Source of the DNA: Myxococcales bacterium
Lineage (GTDB): Bacteria; Myxococcota; B64-G9
Assembly (NCBI GenBank): GCA_012798435.1
Contig: JAAZNF010000042.1
Span: 1-64,000 of the forward strand
Length of the DNA: 64,000 nucleotides
Direction of reading: 5' to 3'
Part shown: in pieces, positions 5,721 through 10,975 of the stretch
How positions within the stretch are numbered: position 1 is the stretch's first letter
How the letters are laid out: every line of letters starts with the position of its first letter
Position numbers and translations under genes: made by a program
The notes under the pieces: model-generated
What the model was told of the DNA's origin: nothing
Seen by the model: only the letters and a program-made list of their open reading frames with translations
The model's database searches: none

Positions 5721-6668
5721 TCATTCGATGACGGGGCCGTCGCCCGGCTCCTCCGGCGGCGGGGCGGGCTCAGGCGTTGGGGAGGCGGGCGGCTCCGGCT
5801 CGTCCGCGGGGAGATCCTCCTCTGGCGGTGGCGGGGTCCGGGCCGGCGGGGGCTCGAGGATTCCGGCGAAGGCGGCCAGATCACGCTCGGCCCGCTCGAA
5901 CTCCTCGCGGGTGATGTAGTCGTACTGCTGCAGCCGCTCCAGGATGGTGGCCGCCCGCCGCAGCAGGCGCGGTGCCGGGCGCAGCGGCGAAAGGCGCAGC
6001 GGCTCCGGGATCACGGCCGCGAGGCGCAGCATTTCGGCGAGGGTCAGCTGCTCGGGCGGCTTTCCGAAGAAGGTCTGGCTGGCCTGGCCGATCCCGAACA
6101 CGCCGGGGCCGAACTCGATGACGTTGAGGTACAGCTCGAGGATGCGGCGTTTGCTGAGGTGGTCCTCCAGCCGCGCCGCCAGGCGGAATTCGCGCAATTT
6201 TCGTAGCCAGCTCCGCTCGCCGGACAGAAAGAGGTTCTTGGCCAGTTGCTGGGTGATGGTGGAAGCGCCGCGCACGACCCGGCCCTGGGTCAGGTTCTGG
6301 CGGAAGGCCTCGCGTACCTCGTGCCAGTCCACTCCCGCGTGAGACCAGAACGAGGCGTCCTCGGCCACGATGACGGTCTTTTGCATGAGTTCCGGGATGC
6401 GCGCCAGTGGCACGAAGGTGGCGCGCAACGAAGGGAAGCCGGGCCGCAGGCGGCCCTGCTGCTTGCGGTGCTCGATGAGCGCGGTGGTGGCCGGGTTCTG
6501 GGTGGCGAGCTTCTCCACGGGGGGCCCGCCCAGGGAAAACCACATCCAGCCACCGAGGACGCCAAGAAGCGCAACAAACGCGAAGATCCCCCACAGGGCC
6601 AGCCGCCGGCGCCCCGGGGCAGCTTTGGGTCTCGAGACGGAGGGAGGAGTGTCAGCCGCGTCGTTCAT
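5721..6668 (-). CDS. mtgA: Monofunctional peptidoglycan transglycosylase (GT51)
   Basis: A 315-residue inner-membrane glycosyltransferase that polymerises lipid II into glycan strands. A cytoplasmic Pro/Arg-rich N-terminus is followed by one transmembrane helix near residues 27-48 and the GT51 domain. The catalytic motif EDASFWSHAGVD (first Glu catalytic) and the second motif GASTITQQLAKNLFL are intact, as is the RRILELYLNVIEFGPGVFGI block. There is no transpeptidase domain; the C-terminus is a Pro/Glu-rich tail. Start ATG 6668 is chosen because it overlaps the upstream stop as ATGA, although the frame is open to 6728. It is the third gene of an overlapping operon with an exported ADP-ribosylglycohydrolase and a small exported protein. 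Confidence 0.9.
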   Translation of the reverse strand: MNDAADTPPSVSRPKAAPGRRRLALWGIFAFVALLGVLGGWMWFSLGGPPVEKLATQNPATTALIEHRKQQGRLRPGFPSLRATFVPLARIPELMQKTVIVAEDASFWSHAGVDWHEVREAFRQNLTQGRVVRGASTITQQLAKNLFLSGERSWLRKLREFRLAARLEDHLSKRRILELYLNVIEFGPGVFGIGQASQTFFGKPPEQLTLAEMLRLAAVIPEPLRLSPLRPAPRLLRRAATILERLQQYDYITREEFERAERDLAAFAGILEPPPARTPPPPEEDLPADEPEPPASPTPEPAPPPEEPGDGPVIE

Positions 6669-8083
6669 GGGACGATCACGTCGAGGGTGCGGAACGCGCT
6701 GGTACCACGCGCGTCGGCGGCGGTGCACACTACTTGGTAGGCGCCGGGTTCGCGAAAGGCGTGTTCCACCCGCTCACCGAAACCCATGTCGAAGTCGCCG
6801 AAATTCCACTGGATCTCGGCCGGACCATGTCCGGGGGCCGGCTCGGCCACGGCGCGCAGGGTCACCCGGCGGCCCTGCTGGCGCTCGAGCCCGATCGTCA
6901 GCCCGGGCGGCGGCGGATCTTCGTCGAGCCATTGCTCCAGCACGAGTCGCGGCCTCTCCTGCACCGGAATGCGCCACAACTCGCCGTCGCTCTCGCCGCC
7001 CGCGGCTCGCACCACGCTGGCGGCCACCTGCTCGGACATCTGCAAGGCCTGCGCCAGCGTCACCTCGGTGTGGCTGAAGGTGGCGTTCTCATCGATGGGG
7101 GAACGAAATGGCTCAGGAATGCCAGAGAGCCCGACGAGGTTGCCCAGGATGGAGCCGACCGTGGAGGCGTTGCAGTCACAGTCCTGGCCGCAGCGCATGG
7201 CGATGCGCATGGAGCGTTCGAGGTCGCCACCGCCATACAGGAGCCCGATGAGCACGTAGGCGGCGTTGAGCTTGGCGTCGATGTTGAACGGCTTTCCAGC
7301 GCCGTCCGGGCAGCGGTCGGTGCCGGCCCACTTGTCCTCGAGGAGCTGCCACACCCGCGTCCAGTCGCCGGGGTTCTCGCGGCTCCAGCGCACCACGTCG
7401 TCCAGCGTCTGCCGGAACCGGCTCTCGGCGGGGATCGCCTCCAGGCCGGCCGCGATCACCTCGTCGAGGTCCCGGGCCACGAAGGCGCGCGCGTGCATGG
7501 CGGCCACCCAGGCGCCGCCGTACACGCCGTCGCCGTGGTTCATGAGGTGCCCGGCGCGCCAGGCGATGTCCAGGGCGGCGCGGGGCAGTCCCGGCGACAC
7601 GATGCCGGCGAAGTCGGTCTCGATCTGCCAGTCGATGTCGTCGGCGTGGCGGTTGTGGCGGTAGTGGCCGGCCTCGAACGGCCCGAGGCCCGCGCGCAGG
7701 TTGTCCCGGCCGGCCAGGTTGGCGTGCCACAGCGCGTACTCGGTGGCGGCGAAGGCGACGGCGAAGTCCTCCACACGGGCTGCTGTGCCGCGCTCGGCCA
7801 ACACTCGGAGGAAAGGGATCTCCACATACAGGTCGTCCTGCAAAAAGGCGGTGTCCAGCAACGCTGGGGTCCAGGCGATGACCTTGTCGTCGGGGATGAT
7901 GGCGCCCAAGTACCAGAATTCCAGCAGGGCGGCCCAGCTCACGCCGGCCATCTGTCCCACCCAGGCTCCGGCGATGCGATCGCGCAACACCTCCCGCGAC
8001 AGCTCATGGTAGCGCGGGCCGTCGGCGCAGGCTGCCGGAAGGCACAGCAGGACGGTGAGGAGATGGGAGCGGAGGCCTTGCAT
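6665..8083 (-). CDS. Exported ADP-ribosylglycohydrolase-family protein with PKD-like C-terminus
   Basis: A 472-residue protein that begins with a signal peptide (LLTVLLCLPAAC, Cys19; either a weak lipobox or a signal peptidase I site). The central domain is of the ADP-ribosylglycohydrolase (DraG/ARH) type: the early acidic pair QDDLYVE, NHGDGVYGGAW, and the late metal-binding loop CGQDCDCNASTVGSILGNLVG-like (Asp-x-Asp then Ala/Ser-rich helix). About 80 C-terminal residues (IQWNFGDFDMGFG, VEHAF, GAYQVVCTAAD) look like a PKD domain. Members of this family normally act in the cytosol, so export is notable; the substrate is unknown. ATG 8083 overlaps the upstream stop (ATGA) and the stop overlaps mtgA in the same way, indicating translational coupling of all three genes. 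Confidence 0.82.
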   Translation of the reverse strand: MQGLRSHLLTVLLCLPAACADGPRYHELSREVLRDRIAGAWVGQMAGVSWAALLEFWYLGAIIPDDKVIAWTPALLDTAFLQDDLYVEIPFLRVLAERGTAARVEDFAVAFAATEYALWHANLAGRDNLRAGLGPFEAGHYRHNRHADDIDWQIETDFAGIVSPGLPRAALDIAWRAGHLMNHGDGVYGGAWVAAMHARAFVARDLDEVIAAGLEAIPAESRFRQTLDDVVRWSRENPGDWTRVWQLLEDKWAGTDRCPDGAGKPFNIDAKLNAAYVLIGLLYGGGDLERSMRIAMRCGQDCDCNASTVGSILGNLVGLSGIPEPFRSPIDENATFSHTEVTLAQALQMSEQVAASVVRAAGGESDGELWRIPVQERPRLVLEQWLDEDPPPPGLTIGLERQQGRRVTLRAVAEPAPGHGPAEIQWNFGDFDMGFGERVEHAFREPGAYQVVCTAADARGTSAFRTLDVIVP

Positions 8084-8694
8084 CAGCGGGCGCGCACGGT
8101 GAAGCTCTGGGCCTTCTCGCCGCTGTCGGCGGCAGTCACCTTGAACTCTCCCAGCACCTCGTCGATCACCAGCTGTCCCCCCGGTTCGCCCTTGCCTTCG
8201 CCGAGCAGCACCGAGAAGGTGTCGCTGGCCAGGTTGCTCTTGGGGGTACGGCCCTGCAGGCGCACGGCGCGGAAGCTCACCGTGTTTTGCCCCTCGCGCA
8301 AATACTCGGACAGCTCGACCACGTCCTGGGGGATGTCGTCGGACAGGGCCTTGAGAAAGCGGTCGTTCACCATCACCTGGATGGTGTAGCCGGTGACGCC
8401 GGGGCGGCTGGTCTCGGTGACCACGTAGTAGTGTTTGGCCAGGGCAGCGCGCACCGGCTGAGCGGCGGCGGGGGGGCCTCCGTCGGGCTGGGAGACGCCG
8501 ATCTCCTGGACCTTGTAGTCCGGAGCCAGGATGTGGACGTTGCCGTTCTTGTCCAGCGTGACCTTGGCGTTGTCGATCACCTGGTCCTTGGCTCCGGTGA
8601 CCTGAACGCCGTTGAGGTACACCTCCACCGCGCTCGCCGAGAGCCCGAGCAGGAGCCCCGCTCCCGCCAGTAGCCAAACGCGCTGTTTTCGCAT
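8083..8694 (-). CDS. Small exported protein of unknown function
   Basis: A 203-residue protein with a typical Sec signal peptide (VWLLAGAGLLLGLSASA, cleavage before VEVYLNG). The mature part is beta-rich with the segments VEVYLNGVQVTG, NGNVHILAPDYKV and a C-terminal strand ending in FTVRAR; no catalytic motif is visible. Two in-frame ATGs lie six bases apart. The second (8694) is preferred because AGGAGG abuts the first and stands six bases from the second. The gene opens the operon with the ADP-ribosylglycohydrolase and mtgA, overlapping the former by four bases. I do not recognise the family. Confidence 0.78.
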   Translation of the reverse strand: MRKQRVWLLAGAGLLLGLSASAVEVYLNGVQVTGAKDQVIDNAKVTLDKNGNVHILAPDYKVQEIGVSQPDGGPPAAAQPVRAALAKHYYVVTETSRPGVTGYTIQVMVNDRFLKALSDDIPQDVVELSEYLREGQNTVSFRAVRLQGRTPKSNLASDTFSVLLGEGKGEPGGQLVIDEVLGEFKVTAADSGEKAQSFTVRAR

Positions 8695-8752
8695 CTTCAT
8701 CCTCCTGATTGCCGATGTTCCCTTGCTTCGACCGGACGGCGCGGGCCTGAAT

Positions 8753-10975
8753 TCAGCCGTCCTCGCGGAGTCCCGCTTTCTTTTCGGCGCGCAGCGACTC
8801 GGGGACGCCGATGCGTTCGCTGGGGATCCATTCGGCCGGGATCTGCAGCTTCCGCCGGATGGAATCGTCCGAGTCGCGGGCCGCCATACGGGTCTCGTTC
8901 ACCCGCCCCGAGGCGGGTTCGCGGCAAGTGACCTTGAGCAGGCATTCCTGGTCGAGGGCGAAGTTGACCTCGAGTTGGACTGTCCCGCGCGGGGCCGGTG
9001 TGATGTTGGAGATGACCAGCGTGCCCAGGTACTCGCAGTCGACCACCCGCTCCGCCTCGCCCTGGAACACGAGCAGTTCCTGGCTGGTCTGCCGATCGGT
9101 AAAGGTGCGGAACATGCAGATGCGGTTGGTGGGCAAGGCGGTGCCGGCCTGGAGGATCTTGGCGAACTTCCCGCCCGGCAGCCCGATGCCGATGCTCATC
9201 GGCAGCACGTCGATGAGCACCACCGAGTCCAATTTATCCAGCGAGTCGGCCAGCAAGGCGGCGCCCACCGCCACCGCCTCGTCGGGGTGGACGCCCTTGT
9301 GCGGTTGCTTGCCGAAGGTCTCGTGGATGCGGCGCCACACCAGCGGCATGCGACTCTGGCCGCCGACCAGGACGATGTTGTCGAGGTGGGTGGTGCTCAT
9401 GCGAGCCTGGCTCAGCACGCCCTGCGCCACCTTGAGGGTGCGCTCCACCAGTGGGCCCACCAGCTCCTCCAGCGTCTCGCGCGAGATCCGCACCTCGAGA
9501 TCGCGCGGTACGCGGTTGACCTTGGCGAAGCCCGGCAGGCGCACGATGGTTTCCTGCTTCTCGGAGAGGGCGCACTTGGCCTGCTCGGCGGCGTCGCGCA
9601 GTCGCTGCATGGCCACGCGGTCCAGCTTTGGCACCGTACCCAACTGTTGGATGTACTCGGCCAGGATGTAGTCCACCAGCTGGTTGTCGAAGTCCACCCC
9701 GCCGAGGAAGATGTCGCCGCCGGTGGCCACCACGCCGTAGACGTTGCCGCACAGCTCCAACACCGAGGCGTCGAAGGTCCCGCCGCCCAGGTCGTACACC
9801 ATGACCCGCTGATCCAGCCCGCGGTTGAAGCCGAAGGCCAGGGCGGCCGCGGTGGGCTCGTTGACGATGCGCTCCACCTTGAAGCCGGCCAGGGTGCCGG
9901 CCTCGCGCACCGCCTGGCGCTGGTTCTCGTTGTAGTAGGCCGGCACGGTGATCACCGCGCGGCTGACCTCCTCGCCCAGGAAGGCGCGCGCCTCGTCGCG
10001 TATCTCGCTGAGCACGAAGGCCGCCACCTGTTGCAGGCTGAACTCGCGGCCGACGATGCGCACCGCCGCCTCGCGCTTGGGGCCCTCGATGATCTCGTAC
10101 TGGAAGCGGTCCTTCATCTGCTGCACGGCGGGCGAGTCGAAGGGCCGGCCGATGAGACGCTTGGAGCCGTACACCGTGTTGCGCGGGTTGAGCTCCATCT
10201 GGGCCTTGGCGTCGTACCCCACCAGCAATCGCCCGCGCTCGTCGTAGGCCACGATGGAGGGCATGGTGCGGTAGCCCTTGCGCGAAGGGATGACCTGGGG
10301 CATCCCGTCCTTGACCACCGCGGCGCAGGAATAGGTCGTCCCCAGGTCGATGCCGATCACCTTGGAGCCTGTCTCTCCTCCCGTGGGCCGCAAGGTGAGC
10401 CGCCGCGCTCCGGGGTCGGGCTCCGACAGGTCCATGACCGGGATGTCGATCTCTCCGGCGGGCGGGCCTTTCTCGGCCACCGCGGCGAGTTCCGGGGCCA
10501 CCTCGAACTTGGGCGGGCCGTCCGATGGCTCCACGTCGATGTCCACGTCCACTTCCGGTGGCGCCGGCCGGATCGGGGGTCGAGGCGGGGTTGCCGGGGG
10601 CGCGGGCGGGCGCGGAGTGGCGGCGGAGGTGGCGCCCTTGCGCTCCAGGATGCGCCGGACCAGGGCTCGGGAGGGCTCGTCGAGATCCAGGAACTTCACC
10701 CCCATGCCCGGCACCTGGAGCGGCTGCCCGGCGACGCTGGGGGCGCGGGCCCAGGCCACCACCCCGCTGCCCTTGAGCACGGTCTGGCCCGAGCTGAGTT
10801 GTATCTCGAAGCGCAGCAGGGTCCCCTTCGGCTTGGGGTCGCGGCTCTGTAAAAAGACCCCGCCGGCGCTGATGTTGGTGGCGAAGTGATCGGCGAACTC
10901 GTCCTGCGTCGGGTACTTGACCTTGAGGACCAGGTTGACGAAGACCCGTTCGTCGTGCCGGCGTTCGTTGCTCAT
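8753..10975 (-). CDS. PilZ domain-Hsp70 (DnaK-like) fusion protein
   Basis: A 740-residue fusion. Residues 1-115 form a PilZ domain of the Myxococcus type (TIGR02266-like) that carries both hallmarks of cyclic-di-GMP binding: RHDER (RxxxR, 6-10) and NISAGG (NxSxxG, 34-39). A Pro-rich linker runs to about 205. An Hsp70 ATPase domain follows, with GIDLGTTYSC, YDLGGGTFDAS, VNEPTAAALA and VGGQSRMP, then a beta-type substrate-binding domain to about 700. The alpha-helical lid of true DnaK is missing or very short. It is therefore a specialised chaperone, not the housekeeping DnaK. No DnaJ or GrpE gene is adjacent. A promoter with a perfect TATAAT lies at 11008-11037. Confidence 0.9.
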   Translation of the reverse strand: MSNERRHDERVFVNLVLKVKYPTQDEFADHFATNISAGGVFLQSRDPKPKGTLLRFEIQLSSGQTVLKGSGVVAWARAPSVAGQPLQVPGMGVKFLDLDEPSRALVRRILERKGATSAATPRPPAPPATPPRPPIRPAPPEVDVDIDVEPSDGPPKFEVAPELAAVAEKGPPAGEIDIPVMDLSEPDPGARRLTLRPTGGETGSKVIGIDLGTTYSCAAVVKDGMPQVIPSRKGYRTMPSIVAYDERGRLLVGYDAKAQMELNPRNTVYGSKRLIGRPFDSPAVQQMKDRFQYEIIEGPKREAAVRIVGREFSLQQVAAFVLSEIRDEARAFLGEEVSRAVITVPAYYNENQRQAVREAGTLAGFKVERIVNEPTAAALAFGFNRGLDQRVMVYDLGGGTFDASVLELCGNVYGVVATGGDIFLGGVDFDNQLVDYILAEYIQQLGTVPKLDRVAMQRLRDAAEQAKCALSEKQETIVRLPGFAKVNRVPRDLEVRISRETLEELVGPLVERTLKVAQGVLSQARMSTTHLDNIVLVGGQSRMPLVWRRIHETFGKQPHKGVHPDEAVAVGAALLADSLDKLDSVVLIDVLPMSIGIGLPGGKFAKILQAGTALPTNRICMFRTFTDRQTSQELLVFQGEAERVVDCEYLGTLVISNITPAPRGTVQLEVNFALDQECLLKVTCREPASGRVNETRMAARDSDDSIRRKLQIPAEWIPSERIGVPESLRAEKKAGLREDG

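Follow-up and report, generated by a model that had tools for sequence, protein, structure and literature searches.

A probably exported ADP-ribosylglycohydrolase-fold protein encoded ahead of mtgA in a Myxococcales genome: a candidate ribosyl hydrolase

Introduction

Among described enzymes, the protein considered here finds its closest structural counterparts in ARH3 (PDB 6g1p, 2foz) and in DraG, the dinitrogenase reductase activating glycohydrolase (PDB 2woc), both with the ADP-ribosylglycohydrolase (ARH) fold. In human ARH3, according to the review of Rack et al. (PMC7050489), the adenine of ADP-ribose is stacked between Phe143 and Tyr149. By the same account, ARHs cannot place a substrate without both metals and the cis 2'',3'' diol of its distal ribose, and ARH1 and ARH3 act selectively on alpha-1'' linkages. 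Exported proteins of the family are found in Bacteroidota and Planctomycetota (for example WP_005858072.1, from Parabacteroides). They belong to the same subfamily as the protein described here, mostly with 38-46% identity, and a limited literature search brought no enzyme assay of this exported subfamily to our notice. Metabolism offers another term of comparison: the rus clusters of Bacteroides are said to comprise a ribokinase, a nucleoside hydrolase and a sugar transporter. The ribose-utilization systems of B. thetaiotaomicron concern nucleotides and nucleosides as carbon sources, as another article puts it (PMC11699363, citing Glowacki et al. 2020).

The gene that we analyse lies just ahead of mtgA in a stretch of 64,000 nucleotides, henceforth the window, from a Myxococcales bacterium. 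Its product is real but fairly ordinary, the exported ARH-fold subfamily being already known, and the interest of the window locus alone is modest. That of the subfamily lies in a missing ADP-recognising loop, a cysteine in a metal motif and ribose-type neighbours at about one third of its loci. Hundreds of genomes encode exported proteins of the ADP-ribosylglycohydrolase family devoid of the ADP-ribose-recognising loop; should these prove to be ribosidases, the family name would mislead, and a source of external ribose or alpha-linked ribosides that is easy to test would have been missed.

The gene run and the fold of the ARH protein

Four genes follow one another on the same strand (Table 1). 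The earlier note on this DNA, made from the letters alone, had described four-base overlaps on both sides of the ARH gene. This is correct on the MtgA side, where the ARH stop and the MtgA start share ATGA, but upstream the stop of the small-protein gene and the ARH start overlap by one base only (TGATG). The note had also treated 6665-8694 as one feature, a span that comprises the ARH gene (6665-8083) but also takes in a second one (8083-8700). The MtgA neighbour is genuine, with 189.6 bits against TIGR02070 (cut-off 182.65).

Table 1. Genes of the run in the window, from the first to the last.
Product	Position	Strand	Remarks
PilZ-HSP70 (DnaK-like) fusion	8753..10975	-	first of the 4-gene run
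Small exported protein, 205 aa	8083..8700	-	no Pfam match
Probably exported ARH-fold protein, 472 aa	6665..8083	-	PF03747 + PKD
MtgA, monofunctional peptidoglycan glycosyltransferase, 315 aa	5721..6668	-	TIGR02070

The fusion protein that opens the run matches PilZ (42.4 bits), HSP70 (530.4 bits, profile positions 1-499 of 599) and TIGR02266 (88.1 bits). The small exported protein gave no match of note in the PDB; it is present in all nine genomes of the family, each of which yields two matches, the second being a distant copy of about 30% identity. Several origins were considered for the ARH gene and dismissed. Its composition is not foreign (GC3 of 0.89, with its companions in the run at 0.87-0.92), a phage collection and PHROGs both failed to give a match that would indicate a phage, and PADLOC returned no defence system. 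Nor is it a recent copy of the other PF03747 gene of the genome, since the local match between the two reaches just 20.8 bits.

Membership of the ADP-ribosylglycohydrolase family, for which the note had advised a profile search, is confirmed by PF03747, with 126.9 bits (cut-off 26.2) over residues 39-324, corresponding to profile positions 1-286 of 287. The PKD-like tail, also seen at first reading, follows at residues 402-467 (PKD_4, 40.1 bits, cut-off 27), and would probably act as a spacer or a binding module. An AlphaFold2 model built on 45 sequences (mean pLDDT 93.1, pTM 0.92, with a pLDDT of about 54 over the first 20 residues) predicts the all-helical fold that defines ARH proteins. Foldseek places ARH3, DraG and related chains at the top of its matches to the model, and PKD domains lower. 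Superposition by VIA-align gives a Z of 30.7 with ARH3 (2.8 A over 298 residues, about 14% identity), and of 12.8 with a PKD domain (1.7 A over 82 residues). Searching the PDB with the single protein sequence retrieved PKD domains and one ARH chain, weakly matched; a profile search retrieved two ARH chains. Among the fold matches there are also ARH-like subunits from motor complexes of the chloroplast, of the Orf2971/Ycf2-FtsHi type (8xks, Z 27.8; 8xqw, Z 26.9).

Active site and substrate loop

The active site was placed by profile alignment with three canonical ARHs from the same bacterial family. Conservation was counted over 94 proteins (the window protein, 89 from the best 80 of at least 535 subfamily loci, and four others), a set chosen for closeness to the query and containing paralogues from single loci. 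E55 aligns with the canonical glutamate, which we equate with Glu41, the Glu flap of ARH3, D83-D84 with the DD of TDDT, and D301 and D303 with GGDxDT; a profile comparison with MJ1187 gives a similar pairing of acidic residues. The putative metal-binding residues of the earlier note are indeed kept, E55, D83, D301 and D303 in 94 of the 94 proteins and D84 in 93. The window protein possesses in this way the Glu flap and both Asp pairs expected of a catalytically competent ARH. The Thr or Ser of TDDT and DxD[TS], expected likewise, are absent: Q82 and L85 stand in the first motif and C304 in the second, the last position of which is Cys in 89 of 94 sequences, as against Thr or Ser in ARH3 and the canonical proteins. 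With a metal site that departs from that of canonical ARHs (C304 for Thr/Ser, Q82 for Thr), activity is not assured.

The loop that reads GSYGNGGAMR in ARH3-type enzymes, and in which we take Tyr149 of ARH3 to be located, is N.HADDIDWQIE in the window protein and N.HADDIDxQIE across the subfamily (H146 in 92 of the 94 proteins, D148 and D149 in 87 each, D151 in 93, Q153 in 94, E155 in 88). The stretch aligned with the GNGxxMR-type loop of ARH1, ARH3 and DraG is NRHADDIDWQIE, which departs from that pattern. Likeness to ARH3 resides in the overall fold, the equivalent glutamate of the Glu flap and the Asp pairs; the window protein differs from it by the replaced SYGNGGAMR loop, by Q82 and C304 at Thr positions, by its probable export and by its PKD tail. 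DraG resembles it in fold (Z 27.9), but has another loop and other metal motifs; furthermore, the window protein is probably exported and no nitrogenase genes were found among the neighbours tested. Comparison of these sequences suggests that the subfamily would have kept ribose binding and not ADP recognition.

Loss of the SYGNGGAMR loop makes removal of ADP-ribose as such less likely. The earlier note had envisaged ADP-ribose or a similar glycosidic bond, and the second half of this alternative, most likely in the form of a ribosyl bond, would be the better one. We consider it unlikely that the protein is a genuine ADP-ribosyl-acceptor hydrolase active outside the cytoplasm, where it would clear envelope or extracellular proteins or counter ADP-ribosylating toxins. 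Conservation of the ARH fold and of the acidic set would fit such a role, and ARH-type immunity proteins exist (6dre and 8za7 are among the fold matches), but the expected site of the adenine-stacking tyrosine has been replaced, no PADLOC match accompanies the gene and the neighbours tested showed no transferase gene. Just as unlikely, in our judgement, is a binding or otherwise non-catalytic protein with a retained ARH fold. The two motif positions unlike canonical ARH (Q82, C304) would suit it, as would the ARH-like chains of the chloroplast motor (8xks, 8xqw); against it, the carboxylates are invariant or nearly so in 94 sequences from several phyla, which would be unusual after loss of catalysis.

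Probable export

The N-terminus of the ARH protein contains a hydrophobic stretch (Kyte-Doolittle mean of 2.46 in the best 12-residue segment) and is signal-like over residues 1 to about 21, with a lipobox-like LPAAC. Likely export, claimed at the outset, is consistent with these features, and the protein would be periplasmic or a lipoprotein. Its export had been presented as surprising for an ARH; to judge from N-termini it is the norm in this subfamily, and thus no surprise. By a crude rule, 83 of the 94 subfamily proteins have signal- or lipoprotein-like N-termini (43 lipobox-like, 40 with a hydrophobic core only), and 11 have neither. The homologue from a Chloroflexi MAG (L038) counts among these 11 owing to a start assigned too late, the longer ORF displaying a twin-arginine N-terminus and then a Cys; the starts of two others, L049 and L071, lie near a contig edge. 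Export routes vary among relatives, which argues for work outside the cytoplasm. The exported proteins of Bacteroidota and Planctomycetota share with the window protein this type of N-terminus as well as QDxDCN and DDIDxQIE.

The pairing with mtgA

A functional coupling to MtgA, another proposal of the earlier reading, did not survive comparison with other genomes. In all eight family relatives the PilZ-HSP70 gene adjoins the gene for the small exported protein, and in none of the eight is ARH or MtgA found beside the latter in the stretch fetched. In six of them the small-protein gene is followed, in the same orientation, by an ornithine-aminotransferase-like gene, a name that we assign on the strength of its sequence; this gene is on the opposite side in L022, and was found neither in L023 nor in the 64-kb window. 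Proteins that match MtgA, whether monofunctional or PBP-type, occur widely in the phylum (in 126 of 193 genomes at E 1e-40), and the nearest, 57% identical, belongs to a genome, G001, without a close ARH homologue. Another genome, G020, has an ARH homologue, a small-protein homologue and an MtgA match on three separate contigs (C279, C43 and C307). A conserved MtgA-ARH operon is rejected on these grounds, with none in the eight family relatives and none at the best 80 of at least 535 homologue loci. The two genes look as if they had been joined in this lineage, the compared genomes including none of the same genus, and they may be co-translated in the window genome. As the pairing is unique to this genome among those compared, it says little on function. 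The position ahead of mtgA would be particular to this lineage, perhaps with the two genes coupled in translation, and without a conserved functional tie.

Peptidoglycan is devoid of a ribose diol. That the protein is a cell-wall enzyme tied to MtgA, cutting a bond of peptidoglycan or wall glycan at a level matched by the overlap to that of the polymerase, is the least probable of the readings and indeed very improbable: the ATGA overlap, the common strand and the likely export favour it, but the pairing exists in this genome only, neither gene occupying the site in the eight relatives, where the ornithine-aminotransferase-like gene follows instead in six, MtgA is at none of the best 80 of at least 535 homologue loci, the ARH homologue and the MtgA match of G020 are apart, and it is a ribose diol that the ARH fold binds, according to PMC7050489.

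Ribose genes near the homologues

Neighbours of the ARH homologues were surveyed with Parabacteroides genes as queries. Over the best 80 of at least 535 homologue loci, a GRP-family sugar transporter was found near the ARH gene in 27 cases, a ribokinase in 22 and a nucleoside hydrolase in 4; MtgA, the small exported protein and PilZ-HSP70 were each found in none of these 80. The transporter is absent from the other 53 of these best 80 loci, many of whose contigs are short. When neighbouring ORFs were clustered, transporter (27) and kinase (21) ranked behind the ARH itself and one opposite-strand cluster. The best Pfam match of the transporter is Ureide_permease, the second Sugar_transport. On an annotated Parabacteroides plasmid the order is rbsK, ARH, nucleoside hydrolase and GRP transporter, the same gene types as in the rus clusters of Bacteroides. 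On a Spirosoma plasmid it is rbsK, a broken ARH gene and GRP transporter. This broken gene (L008:5995-7553), which carries no annotation, consists of two ORFs that overlap and lie in different frames; its first part alone entered the analysis.

The window differs from the loci of Bacteroidota and Planctomycetota, and from rus, in that its ARH gene has no such cluster alongside: its neighbours are PilZ-HSP70, the small exported protein and MtgA, and neither ribokinase nor ribose transporter is beside it. No ribose genes were seen beside its three nearest homologues either (L004, L037 and L038, the last two on short contigs). Elsewhere in the window genome, a search for the GRP transporter, run without a positive control, gave no match, and that for ribokinase gave nothing better than a match of 27% identity. 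With ribose genes missing beside the window gene and its nearest homologues, and a weak match at best in the genome, a ribose role is extrapolated from relatives of about 40% identity.

Proposed function

The reading that we place first, and in which our belief and our doubt weigh about the same, is that of an exported di-metal ARH-fold hydrolase, acting on an alpha-ribosyl bond of an external ribose-bearing molecule. In the two-metal site, which would grip a ribose by its cis 2,3-diol, an N- or O-glycosidic ribosyl bond in alpha linkage would be hydrolysed, and the ribose would be freed for salvage. Export, metal binding, the class of substrate and catalysis itself are all deduced for the window protein, in part from its likeness to described ARHs. 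Because relatives are often encoded within gene clusters for ribose salvage, freeing of ribose is likelier than action with MtgA; by analogy with them, the role is probably in ribose salvage rather than in work on peptidoglycan or ADP-ribosylated proteins.

A broader proposal, towards which we are somewhat more reserved, would set the whole exported subfamily apart as a catalytic class of its own within the ARH fold, with two metals, the Cys of QDxDCN and an acidic DDIDxQIE loop. It would cleave alpha-ribosides other than ADP-ribosyl proteins, and so supply ribose salvage in Bacteroidota and Planctomycetota as well as in the present lineage, where a PKD tail is added.

Relatives of the protein

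Close ARH homologues are rare in the phylum of the window, being found in two of 195 genomes, its own included. A scan of genome contigs yielded at least 535 confirmed loci of the subfamily, the best 80 of which are mostly from Bacteroidota and Planctomycetota. A quick tree unites the window protein with L004, from the same phylum, L037, from a deltaproteobacterial MAG, L038 and three planctomycetes (seven rows, SH-aLRT 99). A PKD domain is carried by the window protein and its three nearest homologues, L004, L037 and L038; scanning three proteins outside the nearest group (L040, L007 and L066) gave no PKD match. The quick tree leaves open the fork of the four PKD-bearing proteins, which form no supported clade. 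Four loci of Bacteroidota (L076, L109, L112 and L116) each hold an array of three consecutive ARH-family paralogues, with a GRP-type transporter farther along; every array begins with a paralogue that is longer and divergent.
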